Source: Streptomyces antibioticus
GTDB taxonomy: Bacteria; Actinomycetota; Actinomycetes; Streptomycetales; Streptomycetaceae
Assembly: GCF_001514065.1 (NCBI RefSeq)
Contig: NZ_KQ948436.1
Coordinates: 11,261 to 75,260 of the forward strand
DNA: 64,000 bases
Direction of reading: 5' to 3'
The position numbers and the translations under genes were made by a program. Of this stretch, positions 21,828 to 26,867 are shown piece after piece (position 1 is the first letter of the stretch; each line of letters begins with the position of its first letter). The notes beneath the pieces are model-generated. The model was not told the DNA's origin. It did not search any database and saw only the letters and a list, made by a program, of their open reading frames with translations.

Positions 21828-22751
21828 GTGACTCGGCGAACCGACTGGGCCGAGTACGCCTACCCGGACGCTCCGCGCGACCGGGGAAGGGGCGCCACCG
21901 GCGCCGAGGCCCAGGGCAGTCACGGGGGATACGGCAGTACGCCGTCGTACGGCACGGACGGGGAGTACGACGGCGGCGTGCCGGACGGCGCGTGGGGGGA
22001 ACACGCGCCGAGCGAGGGCGGGTCGGGCGGCGACGAGTGGCCCGAGGGCGGTTCCGGCCACGGAGCCGACTCCACCGGTGCGGGCTCGCGCCGGGGCGGC
22101 CGCCGTACACGCGGCGAGGGTGGCTCACGCGGGGGACGTGGGCGCCGTCGGCGCGGCTTCGGAGAGTCGCACGGGGAAGCGGCCGACGACTCGTCCGATG
22201 CGGACGGAGGCGTCTCCTCCTCGTCGAGGGCCGAGAAGGGGGAGTCTTCAGCGGACCCGGTCGAGCGGGCGCGGGCGATCTGTCTGCGCCTGCTCACCGG
22301 GACCCCGCGCACCCGTAAGCAACTCGCGGACGCCCTGAGCAAGAAGGGGATTCCGGAGGAGGCGGCGGAGGAGGTGCTGTCGCGGTTCGAGGAGGTCGGA
22401 CTGATCAACGACAGCGCGTTCGCCGACGCCTGGGTGGAGTCCCGGCACCACGGCCGGGGGCTCGCCCGGCGGGCGCTCGCCCAGGAACTGCGGACCAAGG
22501 GCGTGGACTCCACGCTCATCGAGGCGGCCGTCTCGCAGCTCGACTCCGAGCAGGAGGAGACGACCGCGCGTGAGCTGGTCGACCGCAAGCTGCGTGCCAC
22601 ACGCGGCCTCGACCGGGACAAGCGGCTGCGCCGGCTCGCGGGGATGCTCGCCCGGAAGGGGTATCCCGAGGGCATGGCCCTGCGGGTGGTGCGGCAGGCG
22701 CTCGAGGAGGAGGGCGAGGACGCGGAGTTCCTTGAGGGGGAGGGGTTTTGA
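21828..22751 (+). CDS. recX: Regulatory protein RecX
   Basis: Modulates RecA filaments. The 307-residue protein has a Gly/Ser/Arg-rich, low-complexity N-terminal extension of about 135 residues and a C-terminal RecX domain of three-helix repeats (RARAICLRLLTGTPRTRKQL, EVLSRFEEVGLINDSAFADAW, RGLARRALAQELRTKGV). GTG 21828 starts 4 nt after the recA stop. The extension is characteristic of Streptomyces RecX but its role is unclear. Confidence 0.93.
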   Translation: MTRRTDWAEYAYPDAPRDRGRGATGAEAQGSHGGYGSTPSYGTDGEYDGGVPDGAWGEHAPSEGGSGGDEWPEGGSGHGADSTGAGSRRGGRRTRGEGGSRGGRGRRRRGFGESHGEAADDSSDADGGVSSSSRAEKGESSADPVERARAICLRLLTGTPRTRKQLADALSKKGIPEEAAEEVLSRFEEVGLINDSAFADAWVESRHHGRGLARRALAQELRTKGVDSTLIEAAVSQLDSEQEETTARELVDRKLRATRGLDRDKRLRRLAGMLARKGYPEGMALRVVRQALEEEGEDAEFLEGEGF

Positions 22752-22812
22752 GGTGGGGGGTGAGGCGGGCTGGTAGGGGCGCCGTGCCGCCCAAGCGCCC
22801 GCGCGCCCGCTA

Positions 22813-23217
22813 CTAAGCCGACGTCACCGGCAGCCCCGACGCCCGCCAGGCCTGGAACCCGCCCACCAGATCCGTGGCCCGGCGCAACCCCAGCTGGTGC
22901 AGGGATGCGGCCGCCAGGCTGGAGGCGTAGCCCTCGTTGCAGATCACCACGACCCGCAGGTCATGGCTCGTGGCCTCGGGGGCGCGGTGGCTGCCGCGTG
23001 GGTCGAGGCGCCACTCCAGTTCGTTGCGCTCGACGACCAGGGCGCCGGGGATCAGCCCGTCCCGGTCGCGCAGGGCGGCGTAGCGGATGTCCACCAGGAG
23101 CGCCTCACCGCGCTGGGCGGCGTCGTACGCCTCCCGTGCCTCGACCCGGTCGTAGCGCTCGCGTACCTGTTCCAGCAACTCGTCGATGCCGACGGGCTGT
23201 TCGCGTGTTTCGCTCAC
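22813..23217 (-). CDS. Rhodanese-like sulfurtransferase
   Basis: A single rhodanese domain (134 residues) with the active-site cysteine in VVVICNEGYAS and the end DLVGGFQAWRASGLPV. It should transfer persulfide sulfur. Its ATG overlaps the stop of the upstream cysteine dioxygenase gene by 4 bp (ATGA), so the two are co-translated; together they suggest removal of excess cysteine and its sulfur. Confidence 0.9.
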   Translation of the reverse strand: MSETREQPVGIDELLEQVRERYDRVEAREAYDAAQRGEALLVDIRYAALRDRDGLIPGALVVERNELEWRLDPRGSHRAPEATSHDLRVVVICNEGYASSLAAASLHQLGLRRATDLVGGFQAWRASGLPVTSA

Positions 23218-23753
23218 TGCCAGTCCTCCGGACGCTCCACGTGCTCCAGACGCAGGACCTGCCCGGCCCGGCTGTAACGGCGGATCTGCGGCAGGGGCGG
23301 GTAGTAGGCGTGCACCGAGATCGCGTGCTCGTCCGTGGACTCGTTGAGCACCTCGTGGACGTGGTGCTGTCCGAAGGAGCGGCCCTTGCCGGCCGGGAGC
23401 CGCCGTTCCCGGTCCACCCCGTCGGTGAGTTCCAGGGTCTTCCAGCCGTCCGCGGGCAGCCGGACGGCCAGCGAGTTCTCCTTGAGCTCGCCGGAGGCCG
23501 TCACGAAGGCGCCGACGGACTCGGCGTGGTCGTGCCAGCCGGTGCCCGTGCCGGGCGGCCAGCCGATCAGCCAGGCCTCACTGCCGCCGGGCCCTTCCAG
23601 GCGCACCCAGGTGCGGCCCTCCGGGTCGAGCGGGAGCGCGGAGATCAGTTCGGCGTCGGCGGCGGTACGCCGTACGAAGTCGAGCAGTTCTGCCTGCGTG
23701 GGCGCCGACGCGCCGACGGAAGCGGTGGTGGAGGGAGCAGGGGAGACAGACAC
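23214..23753 (-). CDS. Cysteine dioxygenase
   Basis: A cupin enzyme oxidising cysteine to cysteine sulfinate with Fe(II) and O2 (type I-like bacterial CDO, 179 residues). The iron-binding histidines are in GTGTGWHDHAESVGAF and the third in FGQHHVHEVLNES. GTG 23753 is chosen because AGGAC lies 7 nt upstream; GTG 23759 would add two residues. It is the first gene of a CDO-rhodanese operon. An 87-nt leaderless reading frame coding a cysteine-containing peptide lies 79 nt upstream and probably controls the operon by cysteine-dependent attenuation. Confidence 0.9.
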   Translation of the reverse strand: MSVSPAPSTTASVGASAPTQAELLDFVRRTAADAELISALPLDPEGRTWVRLEGPGGSEAWLIGWPPGTGTGWHDHAESVGAFVTASGELKENSLAVRLPADGWKTLELTDGVDRERRLPAGKGRSFGQHHVHEVLNESTDEHAISVHAYYPPLPQIRRYSRAGQVLRLEHVERPEDWQ

Positions 23754-23832
23754 GGGCACCGTCCTGAAGAGCGTTCGCGGAACGCGCGCGACGGCACCAC
23801 GGGCACGGCACGCGCGGGAGAAAGGATGCGAA

Positions 23833-23919
23833 TCAGAACGACGGACGACACACGCAGCCTGCATAGCGGACCAGGTCCATATGGACCCTCCGCCACAGGC
23901 GCACACAGGTGTCGGTCAT
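23833..23919 (-). CDS. Leaderless cysteine-containing leader peptide (uORF)
   Basis: A 28-residue frame, ATG 23919 to TGA 23833, upstream of the cysteine dioxygenase gene. It is preceded at 7 nt by TGTAAT and 18 bp further by TTGACC, so the mRNA should begin at this ATG. The peptide has the pattern L-x-R-R-x-H-x-D-L-x-R-x-A followed by C-V-C near the end, with one more Cys early (positions 5, 22 and 24). This matches from memory the short leader peptides that PGAP labels 'putative leader peptide' before sulfur genes in actinobacteria. Stalling at the Cys codons when charged tRNA-Cys is scarce would alter folding of the 79-nt spacer, which has a GCGTTC/GAACGC hairpin at 23771-23785. Confidence 0.75.
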   Translation of the reverse strand: MTDTCVRLWRRVHMDLVRYAGCVCRPSF

Positions 23920-23926
23920 GCTGCGG

Positions 23927-23956
23927 ATTACAGCATCACGGTGCAGAGACGGTCAA
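23927..23956 (-). promoter_or_regulatory. Promoter of the CDO-rhodanese operon
   Basis: Minus strand TTGACC (23956-23951), 18-bp spacer, TGTAAT (23932-23927), then 7 nt to the uORF ATG. Both hexamers are close to the housekeeping consensus. Confidence 0.7.
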
Positions 23957-24022
23957 CTCAGCGTCACTATGTGGAACGCACGCCCGTGCGAACGCCGCGA
24001 CCGGCTCGGCGCACCCCCGTAC

Positions 24023-24199
24023 CAGCGAGGACCGGCCCTCTCCCCATCTCAGCGCGGCCCCGCCCCAGTGCGTCTCGGCCCTCGCTCCACCACAGCGCGG
24101 TCCCGCCCCCACCCCGGCTCAGCGCGTTCTCGAACAAACCCGCACCGCAGCGCGTTTTCGCCCTCCCCCACCTCAGCGCGTCCCCGCCCCCGCTTCGGC
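24023..24199. repeat. Degenerate ~27-bp tandem repeat starting at a stop codon
   Basis: Seven copies of a motif beginning CAGCGCG (plus strand) occur at 24023, 24050, 24066, 24093, 24120, 24148 and 24174, mostly 26-28 bp apart, each followed by a C-rich stretch. On the minus strand each reads (G/A)CGCGCTGA-like; the copy at 24174 supplies the TGA of the FAD monooxygenase gene and the others lie downstream of it. The array fills most of the gap to the cysteine dioxygenase promoter. No gene is seen in it. Confidence 0.65.
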
Positions 24200-25777
24200 C
24201 TCCGTCTTCGTCGGTCCGCCCAGCGTCGCCTCCGCGGCCGCGTACAGGTCGGCGGGCCGGACCCCGCTCAGTGCGGTCACGAGGTGGCTGTCAGGGCGTA
24301 CCAGCAGGACGCTGTGCGCGGCGGCCCCGGGGTAACTCTCCGCGACCAGGAGCTCGGCGGTGTGCGGCAGCGCCGTCACGGCGGCCGCGAGACGCGGCAT
24401 GACCCCGGCGGTCACCCAGTGCTTGCGGTCCCACACACCCGTCCCCGGCGCGATCAGGACGACGAGCAGCGCCCCGCGGCCGAGCCGGTCGCGGAGTCGT
24501 ACGAACGAGCCGTCCTCGGCGGTGACCCGCACATCGGCGACCGGTGCCCCCGGCTCCGTGTCCACCGGGACCTCGCCCTCCAGGTGCCGGGGCGCCAGCG
24601 GGGAGCCGGCGTACGCCCCCGGCGCACCGAGTGCGCCGCGTCCCAGATGGCCGTCGGCGAGGAGCGCGTCATGGCCCCGGGCCGAGCCGGGGACGTAGGC
24701 GCGCAGTCCGCCACCGCCGCGCAGCAGCGGCAGGGCCTGGTCGGCGGCGCGCAGCCGGGCGGCGACGACGCCACGGCGCTCGGCCTGGTAGCTGTCGAGC
24801 AGCGCCTCGTGCGGGCCGTGGTGCCAGGCGAGCGCCAGCTTCCAGGCGAGGTTGTCGGCGTCCCTGAGCCCCTCGTCCAGCCCCTGCGTGCCGAGCGCGC
24901 CGAGCAGATGCGCCGCGTCCCCGGCGAGGAACACCCGGCCGGCCCGCCAGCGCCGCGCCAGACGGTGGTGGACGGTGTGCACACCGGTGTCGAGGAGGTC
25001 GTACGGCGGTGTCGGACCGCCCGTCCAGCCGGCGAGCGTCTCGCGAACGCGGGACACCAGCAGCTCGGGCGTGACCAGGTCCTTGCCCGGGGGCAGCAGC
25101 CAGTCCAGGCGCCACACCCCGTCCGGCAACGGGCGCCCGGTGATCTCCCCGGCCGAAGGTCCGGACGTCCGCCACGGCGGCATCCGGTGGAGCAACGCCT
25201 CGCCCTCCCACGGAAGTTCCGTGCGCAGCGCGGCCACGGCGTGGCGCTCCACCGCCGTACGGCCGGGGAAGCGGATGTCGAGGAGTTTGCGGACCGTGGA
25301 GCGGGGACCGTCGCAGCCGACCAGGTAACTGCCGCGCCACCACGTGCCCTTGGGGCCGCGGGTGTGCGCGGTGACGCCGGACCTCTCCTGCTCCACGGTG
25401 TCGAGGCGGCTGTCGACGGCGATCTTGACGAGCCGTTCGTCGGCGAGGGCCTCGCGGAGCAGGCTGGTCAGGACGTGCTGGGCGATGTGCAGGGGAGCCG
25501 GCTCCGCCGGGTCGTCGAAGGCGACCTCGCGCATCACCTGCTTGCGCCGCAACGACCGCCATCCGGCCCAGTGGCAGCCGACCCCGTCGAGCGCGACGCC
25601 GGTCAGCCGCTCCATCAGGGCGGCGGTGTCCTCGCGGAGCACGACCGTGCGGGCAAGACGGGGTTCGTCCTTGCCGGGACCCTCGTCGAGGACTACGGAC
25701 GGCACGTCCTGGCGGGCCAGCGCGAGGGCGAGCGTGAGCCCGACGGGCCCCGCTCCGACGATGATCACCGGGTCCAC
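24173..25777 (-). CDS. FAD-dependent aromatic monooxygenase (PheA/TfdB type)
   Basis: A flavoprotein hydroxylase of 534 residues. It shows the N-terminal GxGxxG motif VIIVGAGPVGLTLA, the DG motif VGCDGPRSTVRK, the GD motif GRVFLAGDAAHL, and a C-terminal thioredoxin-like domain usual for large polyketide or phenol hydroxylases. The substrate is unknown. GTG 25777 is chosen because AGGGGG lies upstream and the FAD fold begins directly; a TTG at 25867 would add 30 residues. The stop codon is part of a tandem repeat. It lies downstream of the glu operon but behind a terminator, so it is probably separately transcribed. Confidence 0.85.
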   Translation of the reverse strand: MDPVIIVGAGPVGLTLALALARQDVPSVVLDEGPGKDEPRLARTVVLREDTAALMERLTGVALDGVGCHWAGWRSLRRKQVMREVAFDDPAEPAPLHIAQHVLTSLLREALADERLVKIAVDSRLDTVEQERSGVTAHTRGPKGTWWRGSYLVGCDGPRSTVRKLLDIRFPGRTAVERHAVAALRTELPWEGEALLHRMPPWRTSGPSAGEITGRPLPDGVWRLDWLLPPGKDLVTPELLVSRVRETLAGWTGGPTPPYDLLDTGVHTVHHRLARRWRAGRVFLAGDAAHLLGALGTQGLDEGLRDADNLAWKLALAWHHGPHEALLDSYQAERRGVVAARLRAADQALPLLRGGGGLRAYVPGSARGHDALLADGHLGRGALGAPGAYAGSPLAPRHLEGEVPVDTEPGAPVADVRVTAEDGSFVRLRDRLGRGALLVVLIAPGTGVWDRKHWVTAGVMPRLAAAVTALPHTAELLVAESYPGAAAHSVLLVRPDSHLVTALSGVRPADLYAAAEATLGGPTKTEAEAGAGTR

Positions 25778-25893
25778 GGCGCGGCGCCCCCTGTCCGTGG
25801 CGGCGTCCCGGGGGACGTGGGTGAACAGAGGGTTGGAGCAGGGTGCGCGATCACAGAACGTATGCAACCCATTGCCGGTGCTTGCGTCAAGTG

Positions 25894-25927
25894 ACGGAGG
25901 CAGTGGCGATCATGCCACTGCCTCCGT
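25894..25927 (-). terminator. Terminator of the gluABCD operon
   Basis: A perfect 14-bp stem (25894-25907 with 25914-25927) and a 6-nt loop, about 32 nt past the gluD stop on the minus strand. Confidence 0.85.
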
Positions 25928-25958
25928 GCGGGTCAAGCATCTTGACGGATCATCAGAA

Positions 25959-26867
25959 TCAGCCGCCACCACCGGTGTTCTCACCGGTTCCGAAGGTGCC
26001 GGGGATCGCGGCGGGGTTGATCTCCGTGTCCTCGCCGAGCACCGCCCCCGTGCTCCGCTTGCTCCGCCGCAGCCGCTTCTCCAGCCAGCTCGCGAAGCTG
26101 GTCAGGAGGAAGTTCACGACGATGTAGATGAGTGCCACGACGACGAAGCTCTGGATGACGTTGGCGTAGTTCGCCGCCAGCGTCGCGCGCTCGCTGAGCA
26201 GTTCGGTGAAGCCGATCATGACGCCGCCGAGCGCGGTGTCCTTCACGATGACGACGAGCTGGCTGACGATGGCCGGGAGCATCGCGGTGACAGCCTGCGG
26301 AAGCAGGATCAGCCTCATCGTCTGGCCCTTGCGCAGGCCGACCGCCTGGGCCGCCTCCGTCTGTCCCTTGGGCAGCGCGAGGATGCCGGCCCGGACGACC
26401 TCGGCGAGGACCGCGGCGTTGTAGAGCACGAGGCCGGTGACGACCGCGTACAGCGGCCGGTTCTCGGTGCTCACGTCAGTGGAGCGGGCGTAGACCTCGT
26501 TGGCGAACAGCATCAGCAGCAGGACCGGGATGGCGCGGAAGAACTCCACCACCGTGCCGGCCACGCCCCGCACCCAGCGGTGGTCGGAGAGGCGGGCGAT
26601 GCCGAAGACCGCGCCGAGCGGGAGGCCGATCACCATGGCGAGCGCTGCCGCCTTGAGCGTCTCTCCGAGGCCCGGCAGGAGGTAGGTCGTCCACGCCTCC
26701 GACTCGGTGAACGGCTTCCACAGGGACCACTCCAGCTGGCCCTTGTCGTCCAGTGCCGACCAGACCCACCACGCCAGCAGGAGGAGCAGGACGACGAAGA
26801 CCACCGAGAGGATCACATTGCGCCGCTTGGCGCGGGGGCCCGGAGTGTCGTAGAGGACCGAGCTCAT
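25959..26867 (-). CDS. gluD: Glutamate ABC transporter permease GluD
   Basis: The second membrane subunit (302 residues) of a polar amino-acid importer: about five to six helices with the ABC permease EAA-type loop AAQAVGLRKGQTMRLILLPQA. The C-terminal tail is Gly-rich. It overlaps the gluC stop by 4 bp (ATGA). It forms a heterodimer with GluC and is the last gene of gluABCD. Confidence 0.93.
   Translation of the reverse strand: MSSVLYDTPGPRAKRRNVILSVVFVVLLLLLAWWVWSALDDKGQLEWSLWKPFTESEAWTTYLLPGLGETLKAAALAMVIGLPLGAVFGIARLSDHRWVRGVAGTVVEFFRAIPVLLLMLFANEVYARSTDVSTENRPLYAVVTGLVLYNAAVLAEVVRAGILALPKGQTEAAQAVGLRKGQTMRLILLPQAVTAMLPAIVSQLVVIVKDTALGGVMIGFTELLSERATLAANYANVIQSFVVVALIYIVVNFLLTSFASWLEKRLRRSKRSTGAVLGEDTEINPAAIPGTFGTGENTGGGG

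Follow-up and report, generated by a model that had tools for sequence, protein, structure and literature searches.

Cysteine leader peptides were proposed in actinobacteria in 2005 (PMC1262725) and 2015 (PMC4633059), and such leaders were tested in mycobacteria in 2020 (Canestrari 2020, as reported in the available parts of PMC9094748, PMC13236596 and PMC9031893). The leader considered here is an upstream open reading frame (uORF) before a gene of the cysteine dioxygenase (CDO) family in the window, i.e. the whole 64,000-nt stretch of Streptomyces antibioticus DNA that was analysed. It shares with the actinobacterial cys-operon leaders, as far as these are described in the accessible text of PMC1262725, the short reading frame, the Cys codons near the stop and the absence of a conserved terminator hairpin. 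Those leaders, however, precede cys and cbs genes and carry runs of Cys codons, and the same portion of that paper describes no sequestering hairpin, whereas one is predicted for the CDO leader. With the mycobacterial polycysteine uORFs (excerpts of PMC9094748, PMC13236596 and PMC9031893) it has in common a Cys uORF, apparently leaderless, before a sulfur-metabolism gene and a proposed control via the speed of elongation at Cys codons, but it differs from them in that an anti-Shine-Dalgarno sequence (anti-SD) is proposed, the downstream family oxidises cysteine, and there is no run of adjacent Cys codons (0 of 35 distinct uORF peptides), the arrangement being C-V-C plus, in 71 of 80 sequences, a C-terminal Cys. 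The uORFC-8-2 element before cysS of Rhodobacterales is likewise a candidate attenuator with Cys codons, in which, according to the part of PMC8632094 at hand, UGC dominates and an intrinsic terminator is modelled, whereas in the CDO leader the anchor codon is an invariant UGU and no terminator was listed.

The closest description is the NCBI profile NF042934 ('putative leader peptide'). The uORF peptide scores 37 bits against a curated cut-off of 27 and matches the full 19-position profile, with Cys24 at its last position, and it is thus a member of a family already modelled by NCBI. It departs from the rest of the family in having additional cysteines next to the anchor (many relatives read GCVCRPSC), in a near-invariant body that codes for a stable hairpin and in the cysteine-oxidising family of its target. 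As a leader peptide before a gene for amino-acid breakdown it also resembles TnaC of the tryptophanase operon, where tryptophan causes the nascent peptide to arrest the ribosome at the stop codon; the architecture of the CDO leader, however, fits codon starvation as well or better. Among the papers listed in a literature search, which left most subscription journals outside its coverage, there was no report of an association between CDO genes and such leaders, nor of the UGU rule set out below. In an annotation of S. lividans eight leader peptides are given, none of them before CDO in the accessible text (PMC8079986). Table 4 of the same source contains a metL leader, called methionine-dependent, which ends in CMCRRMCAF and may be a Cys leader. 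Overall, the CDO leader belongs to a kind of element already described, but its target is odd.

The leader and its relatives

Table 1. Features of the leader and of the gene pair behind it, in coordinates of the window.
Feature	Coordinates	Strand	Evidence and remarks
−35 element TTGACC	23951..23956	−	sequence; TTGACC in 73/80, TTGAAA in 7/80
−10 element TGTAAT	23927..23932	−	relatives: TGTACT 62/80, TCTACT 15/80, TGTAAT 3/80
uORF MTDTCVRLWRRVHMDLVRYAGCVCRPSF, 28 codons + stop	23833..23919	−	NF042934 match; leaderless by architecture
P1 hairpin in the coding body, codons RLWRRVHMDLVRYAG	23857..23901	−	predicted; tested against synonymous recodings
Anchor cysteine codon UGU (Cys24), proposed sensor codon	23848..23850	−	TGT in 80/80 CDO leaders
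Anti-SD, last uORF codons (proposed)	23834..23844	−	window has the weakened variant CCGTCGTTCTG; CCGTCCTG in 61/80
TTCGC directly 3' of the stop, 5' side of a 5-bp helix	23828..23832	−	kept in relatives; paired by RNAalifold
GCGAA, 3' side of the TTCGC helix	23774..23778	−	variable GC-rich stretch between the two sides can form a hairpin
CDO Shine-Dalgarno (SD) CAGGACGG	23759..23766	−	5 nt before GTG; present in 79/80
Cysteine dioxygenase family gene, CDO_I, 179 aa	23214..23753	−	PF05995, E 7.9e-51
Rhodanese-domain gene	22813..23217	−	PF00581, E 8.1e-13; 4-nt overlap with the CDO gene end

An earlier note on this DNA had proposed a leaderless cysteine leader peptide upstream of a cysteine dioxygenase gene. 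Its promoter, TTGACC and TGTAAT separated by 18 nt with the ATG (23919) 7 nt further on, was found at the coordinates it had given on the minus strand; the 28-codon frame has Cys at positions 5, 22 and 24 and the pattern RR-x-H-x-D-L-x-R-x-A-x-C as claimed; and 79 nt do separate the end of the uORF stop (23833) from the GTG at 23753 of the downstream gene, identified as CDO_I by a profile search in which PF05995 covers residues 10-162 of the 179 (172.4 bits). An NF042934-type short ORF of 28 codons thus stands 79 nt directly before a sulfur-related gene, CDO_I, on the same strand. A generic sigma-70 scan did not list the uORF promoter because it demands A at the second position of the −10 element. 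No intrinsic terminator was listed at the leader in a scan of positions 22000-26000, and an Rfam search of 22500-24500 gave no match up to E 1.

At least 455 relatives of the CDO gene were confirmed, of which the best 80, all from Streptomyces by title, were taken, and a near-identical uORF was found before CDO in 79 of these 80 loci. Counts out of 80 below refer to these 79 loci plus the window, and therefore describe close relatives. The earlier note had made conservation of the Cys codons and of the H-x-D-L-x-R motif across relatives a check of its proposal, which Cys24 (80/80), Cys22 (79/80) and the motif pass; Cys5, which it had counted as part of the leader, is kept in only 53/80. The further Cys present as C-terminal residue in 71/80 is replaced by Phe in the window. 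The start codon is GTG in 62/80 and ATG in 18/80. Its distance from the −10 element is 7 nt in 80/80, with promoter spacers of 17 (64) or 18 nt (16), and since a constant 7-nt spacing in 80 sequences suits a leaderless start, we infer that transcription starts at the uORF start codon. The existence of the uORF is thus confirmed, and it is a strongly conserved representative of an already described family of candidate cysteine-sensing switches. In L097, the one fetched locus without the uORF, other sequence has taken the place of the leader's 5' half, and the last codons and the downstream arm remain.

A second sample consisted of 296 genomes of the class, which may overlap the 80 loci. Within the genus, the leader precedes CDO in 24 of 24 genomes with this type of CDO (E below 1e-40), the window's own genome included, and NF042934-type leaders precede 2 of 20 further CDO-family genes (L194, L200). 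In other genera a different NF042934-type leader stands directly before CDO in 5 of 41 genomes (L150, L174, L176, L178 and L181), the 41 being those, of 102 with a CDO match, whose CDO neighbourhood was examined, one of them (G067) with only about 140 nt of upstream sequence. The search pattern used for the other genera and the further CDO genes was strict, so that these counts may miss leaders, and two leader-like matches (L158, L164) were kept out of them because the CDO start relative to the leader is unsettled.

Some single loci deserve mention. In L181 the leader stop lies 7 nt before the CDO start, which places the SD region inside the leader ORF, and coupling may differ there. In L176, a CDO leader of another family, TGTCCTTT, just upstream of the last Cys codons, is complementary to AAAGGACA before the CDO start. 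An NF042934-type leader at L141 (262-346) precedes a gene that, read without a search, looks like a carbonic anhydrase and not CDO, and in contig C5 of G055 a family leader has a CDO gene as its close neighbour on the opposite strand (168124-168180 and 168582-168935). Directly before the −35 element, at 23957-23976 (minus strand) in the window and also in the relatives, there is a conserved box resembling GTCCACATAGTGACNGTGAG (GTCCACATAGTGAC-like), possibly a site for an activator or for GlnR.

Predicted RNA structure and the modelled ribosome

In 61/80 sequences the last uORF codons, CCGTCCTG(C/T)TGA, contain the exact reverse complement of the CDO SD CAGGACGG, the endings being CCGTCCTGCTGA in 58/80 and CCGTCCTGTTGA in 3 more. 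All eight SD nucleotides are paired to the last five uORF codons in the minimum free energy fold of 54/80. The anti-SD:SD duplex has a mean energy of −14.7 kcal/mol as compared with −9.3 for base-shuffled and −11.8 for synonymous versions, the pairing reaching p<0.05 in 60/80 against shuffles and in only 1/80 against synonymous recoding. The window ends its uORF with CCGTCGTTCTGA, a weak anti-SD whose pairing has p 0.11 against shuffles. RNAalifold, run on a MAFFT alignment of 67/80 sequences (the 13 with the longest gaps were left out), recovered no anti-SD:SD helix and no compensatory pair, the SD being paired with the start-codon region instead; covariation support for the pairing is lacking because the SD hardly varies. 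An anti-SD design shared across the NF042934 family was considered and set aside, since over 26 leaders the pairing between the uORF end and the SD was only modestly stronger in matched (−14.3) than in mismatched combinations (−13.1, permutation p 0.0105; the two stretches overlap in L181). The ssuD-like leader L012 contains CTCCTGTTG, which the Cys codons overlap and which is exactly complementary to CAACAGGAG ahead of the downstream start.

Two further structures were predicted. In 80/80 sequences [T/C]TCGC follows the stop and GCGAA precedes the SD, and four pairs of the TTCGC:GCGAA helix are included in the RNAalifold consensus. Folding of the whole arm gave a mean z of −2.47 against base shuffles, below −2 in 55/80, as compared with only −1.56 for the gap alone. 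The P1 hairpin in the coding body was evaluated on the 12 commonest of the 19 sequence versions of the uORF body, 10 of which fold at −28.2 to −29.2 kcal/mol, with synonymous recodings averaging −16.5 to −19.3 (p 0 to 0.02 in 11 versions and 0.053 in one). As P1 outdoes its synonymous recodings, these folding calculations indicate that the WRRVHMDLVRYAG stretch is, in part at least, conserved as RNA.

The effect of a translating ribosome was modelled by assuming that 15 nt are covered from the P-site and by computing the energy needed to open the SD in the 80 sequences. The mean cost is 11.0 kcal/mol in the free RNA, 12.1 with the A-site at Cys22, 8.3 at the next codon and 6.7 at the Cys24 UGU, where it stays up to the stop codon. 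Since the cost falls by Cys24 and not at Cys22, the predicted switch point coincides with the family's anchor cysteine, and as most of the 80 sequences carry the anti-SD in their final uORF codons, a ribosome waiting at Cys24 should make the CDO start easier to open, as in attenuators of the starvation type. On this model CDO would be induced when cysteine runs short. Even when the anti-SD is covered, the SD stays mostly paired, in a weak local structure (0.22 unpaired on average). Little switching is predicted for the window's own copy, in which opening the SD costs 7.1 kcal/mol in the free RNA, 9.3 at Cys22 and 6.8 at the Cys24 UGU.

We consider it probable that the leader is a translational cysteine attenuator of the NF042934 family, which controls the cdo-rhodanese pair, is on in cysteine shortage and acts weakly in the window's strain. 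Transcription would begin at the uORF start codon. When the uORF is unoccupied, its last codons would pair with the CDO SD, and this pairing, together with the TTCGC:GCGAA helix and the GC-rich hairpin, is predicted to keep the CDO start closed. Under a shortage of cysteinyl-tRNA, a ribosome would linger at the Cys24 UGU and, as modelled, cover the anti-SD, making the CDO start accessible, so that the cdo-rhodanese operon would be regulated in the same direction as genes for cysteine biosynthesis and sulfur scavenging. Such a switch is predicted to be weak in the window's strain.

The codon of the anchor cysteine

The anchor Cys codon was found to be UGU in 106 of 106 NF042934 leaders (e.g. 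L005, L012, L205, L211), which, being related to one another, do not count as independent events. The other Cys codons of the same 106 leaders are 90 UGC and 21 UGU, and in a rough comparison set of 35 open frames, selected from the window on base composition, there are 99 UGC and 22 UGU. Codons neighbouring the anchor have A or T as the third base in 1-30%. Of the 24 matches in the window's own genome (L005-L028), 19 entered the set, together with 27 of 29 new loci of the class and 60 further listed places, which were picked by rank while passing over the CDO leaders of Streptomyces. Not included were L010, L023, L024 and L027, whose match falls short of the last position, as well as L021, L214 and L220 (the latter two at a contig edge). 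A later check found UGU also in L021, L023, L024, L214, L220, L158 and L164 and in seven CDO leaders of other genera or further CDO genes. Two matches lack the anchor Cys, L010, a family match above the cut-off, having Arg and L027 having Ala at that position.

tRNA-Cys reads UGU by wobble, and for this reason the UGU may act as the sensor. A short stem between an Asp codon and the UGU was also considered as the reason for UGU, and was rejected since the pair at −28/+4 is without covariation (55 of 105 paired, 60.8 in shuffles); the inner pairs of this stem are uninformative because their positions vary hardly or not at all. The constant use of UGU at the anchor is a sharp and cheap lead on how cysteine leaders sense.

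Direction of the proposed response

The window's own genome contains 11 NF042934 matches above the cut-off, that of the window included, and more below it. Their targets include genes that read as a ThiS-like sulfur carrier, a sulfite reductase, an alkanesulfonate monooxygenase and a rhodanese, along with transport, TauD-like and flavin monooxygenase genes, all read from sequence and without a family search. From these readings the leaders appear to stand before cysteine-biosynthesis and sulfur-scavenging genes, although some targets are not evidently sulfur genes, e.g. a ROK-like regulator after L007.

S. coelicolor SCO5772 is, to judge by its name, presumably the orthologue of the window gene and would then be preceded by the leader. 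According to the accessible parts of PMC4991794, SCO5772 ('hypothetical' in the table of the H2O2 response, and elsewhere a homologue of a putative cysteine dioxygenase) rises 8.0-fold in 0.15 mM H2O2 together with cysNDC, cysH, cysI, ssuABC, cysA, cysM and metNI, a response that is lost in the hbpS-senS-senR mutant. The S. venezuelae homologue was reported to be induced more than 5-fold in nitrogen starvation in a GlnR-dependent manner (PMC3087709, in the part available), so that promoter control could account for changes in expression. In feather (keratin) medium, cdo1 and cdo2 of strain SCUT-3 were raised 50.2-fold and 8.3-fold (PMC7181669), and in strain KK cdo and sulfate-reduction genes went up together at 96 h (PMC12763843), both as given in the portions of these papers at hand. 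No cysteine-response experiment and no experiment on the window's CDO locus were found in the literature search.

The earlier note had argued for an inverted sign, with CDO switched on when cysteine is plentiful. The leaderless, cysteine-based regulatory uORF it proposed is well supported as a prediction; the sign is not, since the anti-SD model, the sulfur-gene relatives and the co-induction of SCO5772 favour the opposite. Starvation-type control, with CDO on when cysteine is short, is most likely, a sign inferred rather than demonstrated in view of the rise of CDO in feather medium and the weak switch predicted for the window.

If the cysteine-rich sign did apply, cysteine would be detected by the nascent peptide, which would then stall its ribosome on the stop codon or close to it, much as TnaC does with tryptophan, and the arrest would free the SD or mask a Rho site. 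Such a mechanism, which we regard as unlikely, would suit a target whose family oxidises cysteine and the rise of cdo in feather medium (available parts of PMC7181669 and PMC12763843), and the SD is opened as cheaply by a modelled ribosome at the stop codon. It would also agree with the conservation of uORF residues other than Cys, but part of this is explained by the P1 hairpin, and with the pyrimidine-rich stretch after TTCGC (mean 0.83 over 16 nt, 0.64 in the rest of the gap), but only 6/80 of these stretches are without G. It is weakened by the same leader family preceding genes read as biosynthetic, where this sign would make no sense, and by SCO5772 moving with cysteine-biosynthesis genes in the accessible data of PMC4991794.

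Regulation might instead lie at transcription initiation, exerted by GlnR or by some factor that recognises the conserved box next to the −35 element, and the uORF would then be a constitutive damper of translation, P1 and a further structure, P2, keeping CDO low. The GlnR-dependent induction described in the available text of PMC3087709, the GTCCACATAGTGAC-like box before the −35 element and the weak switch calculated for the window are in line with this proposal; it would, however, leave an invariant UGU and a cysteine-anchored motif across many genes without evident purpose, and it, too, seems improbable. A ribosomal frameshift at the UGU, by which the uORF would be fused to the CDO frame to give an extended enzyme, was rejected as very improbable: in 66/80 no stop interrupts the CDO frame upstream as far as the uORF, but open frames are common at this G+C content and the phase between uORF and CDO varies (50, 17 and 13 of 80).

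A translational attenuator that is on in cysteine shortage, the preferred reading, leaves a paradox, since it would be physiologically odd for a shortage of cysteine to induce an enzyme that oxidises it. Dominy reportedly described in 2006 the activity of an S. coelicolor homologue. The solved chains closest to the CDO protein are 8qfr (E 2.2e-11) and 8qfl (E 2.7e-11), deposited as cysteine dioxygenase, and chains deposited as cysteine dioxygenase type 1 rank behind them (E 1.2e-4 and weaker); the AlphaFold model of the protein is poor (mean pLDDT 51.8). The chains 8qfr and 8qfl are reported to come from work on an ergothioneine-degrading dioxygenase; in that case the CDO protein might serve to set sulfur free from a storage thiol. 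It is offered as a conjecture, rather doubtful as it stands, that the invariant UGU is the dedicated sensor of leaders found throughout the class, and that one of their targets is a thiol dioxygenase which mobilises sulfur in shortage instead of disposing of cysteine. Were the enzyme to act in this way (e.g. from ergothioneine or another thiol to a sulfinate and then to sulfite), the paradox of the sign would be gone. In Streptomyces, and sporadically in other families of actinobacteria, the leader ties a supposedly catabolic enzyme to what appears to be a circuit for cysteine shortage. Either the role of the CDO enzyme has been misread or the leader works in both signs.
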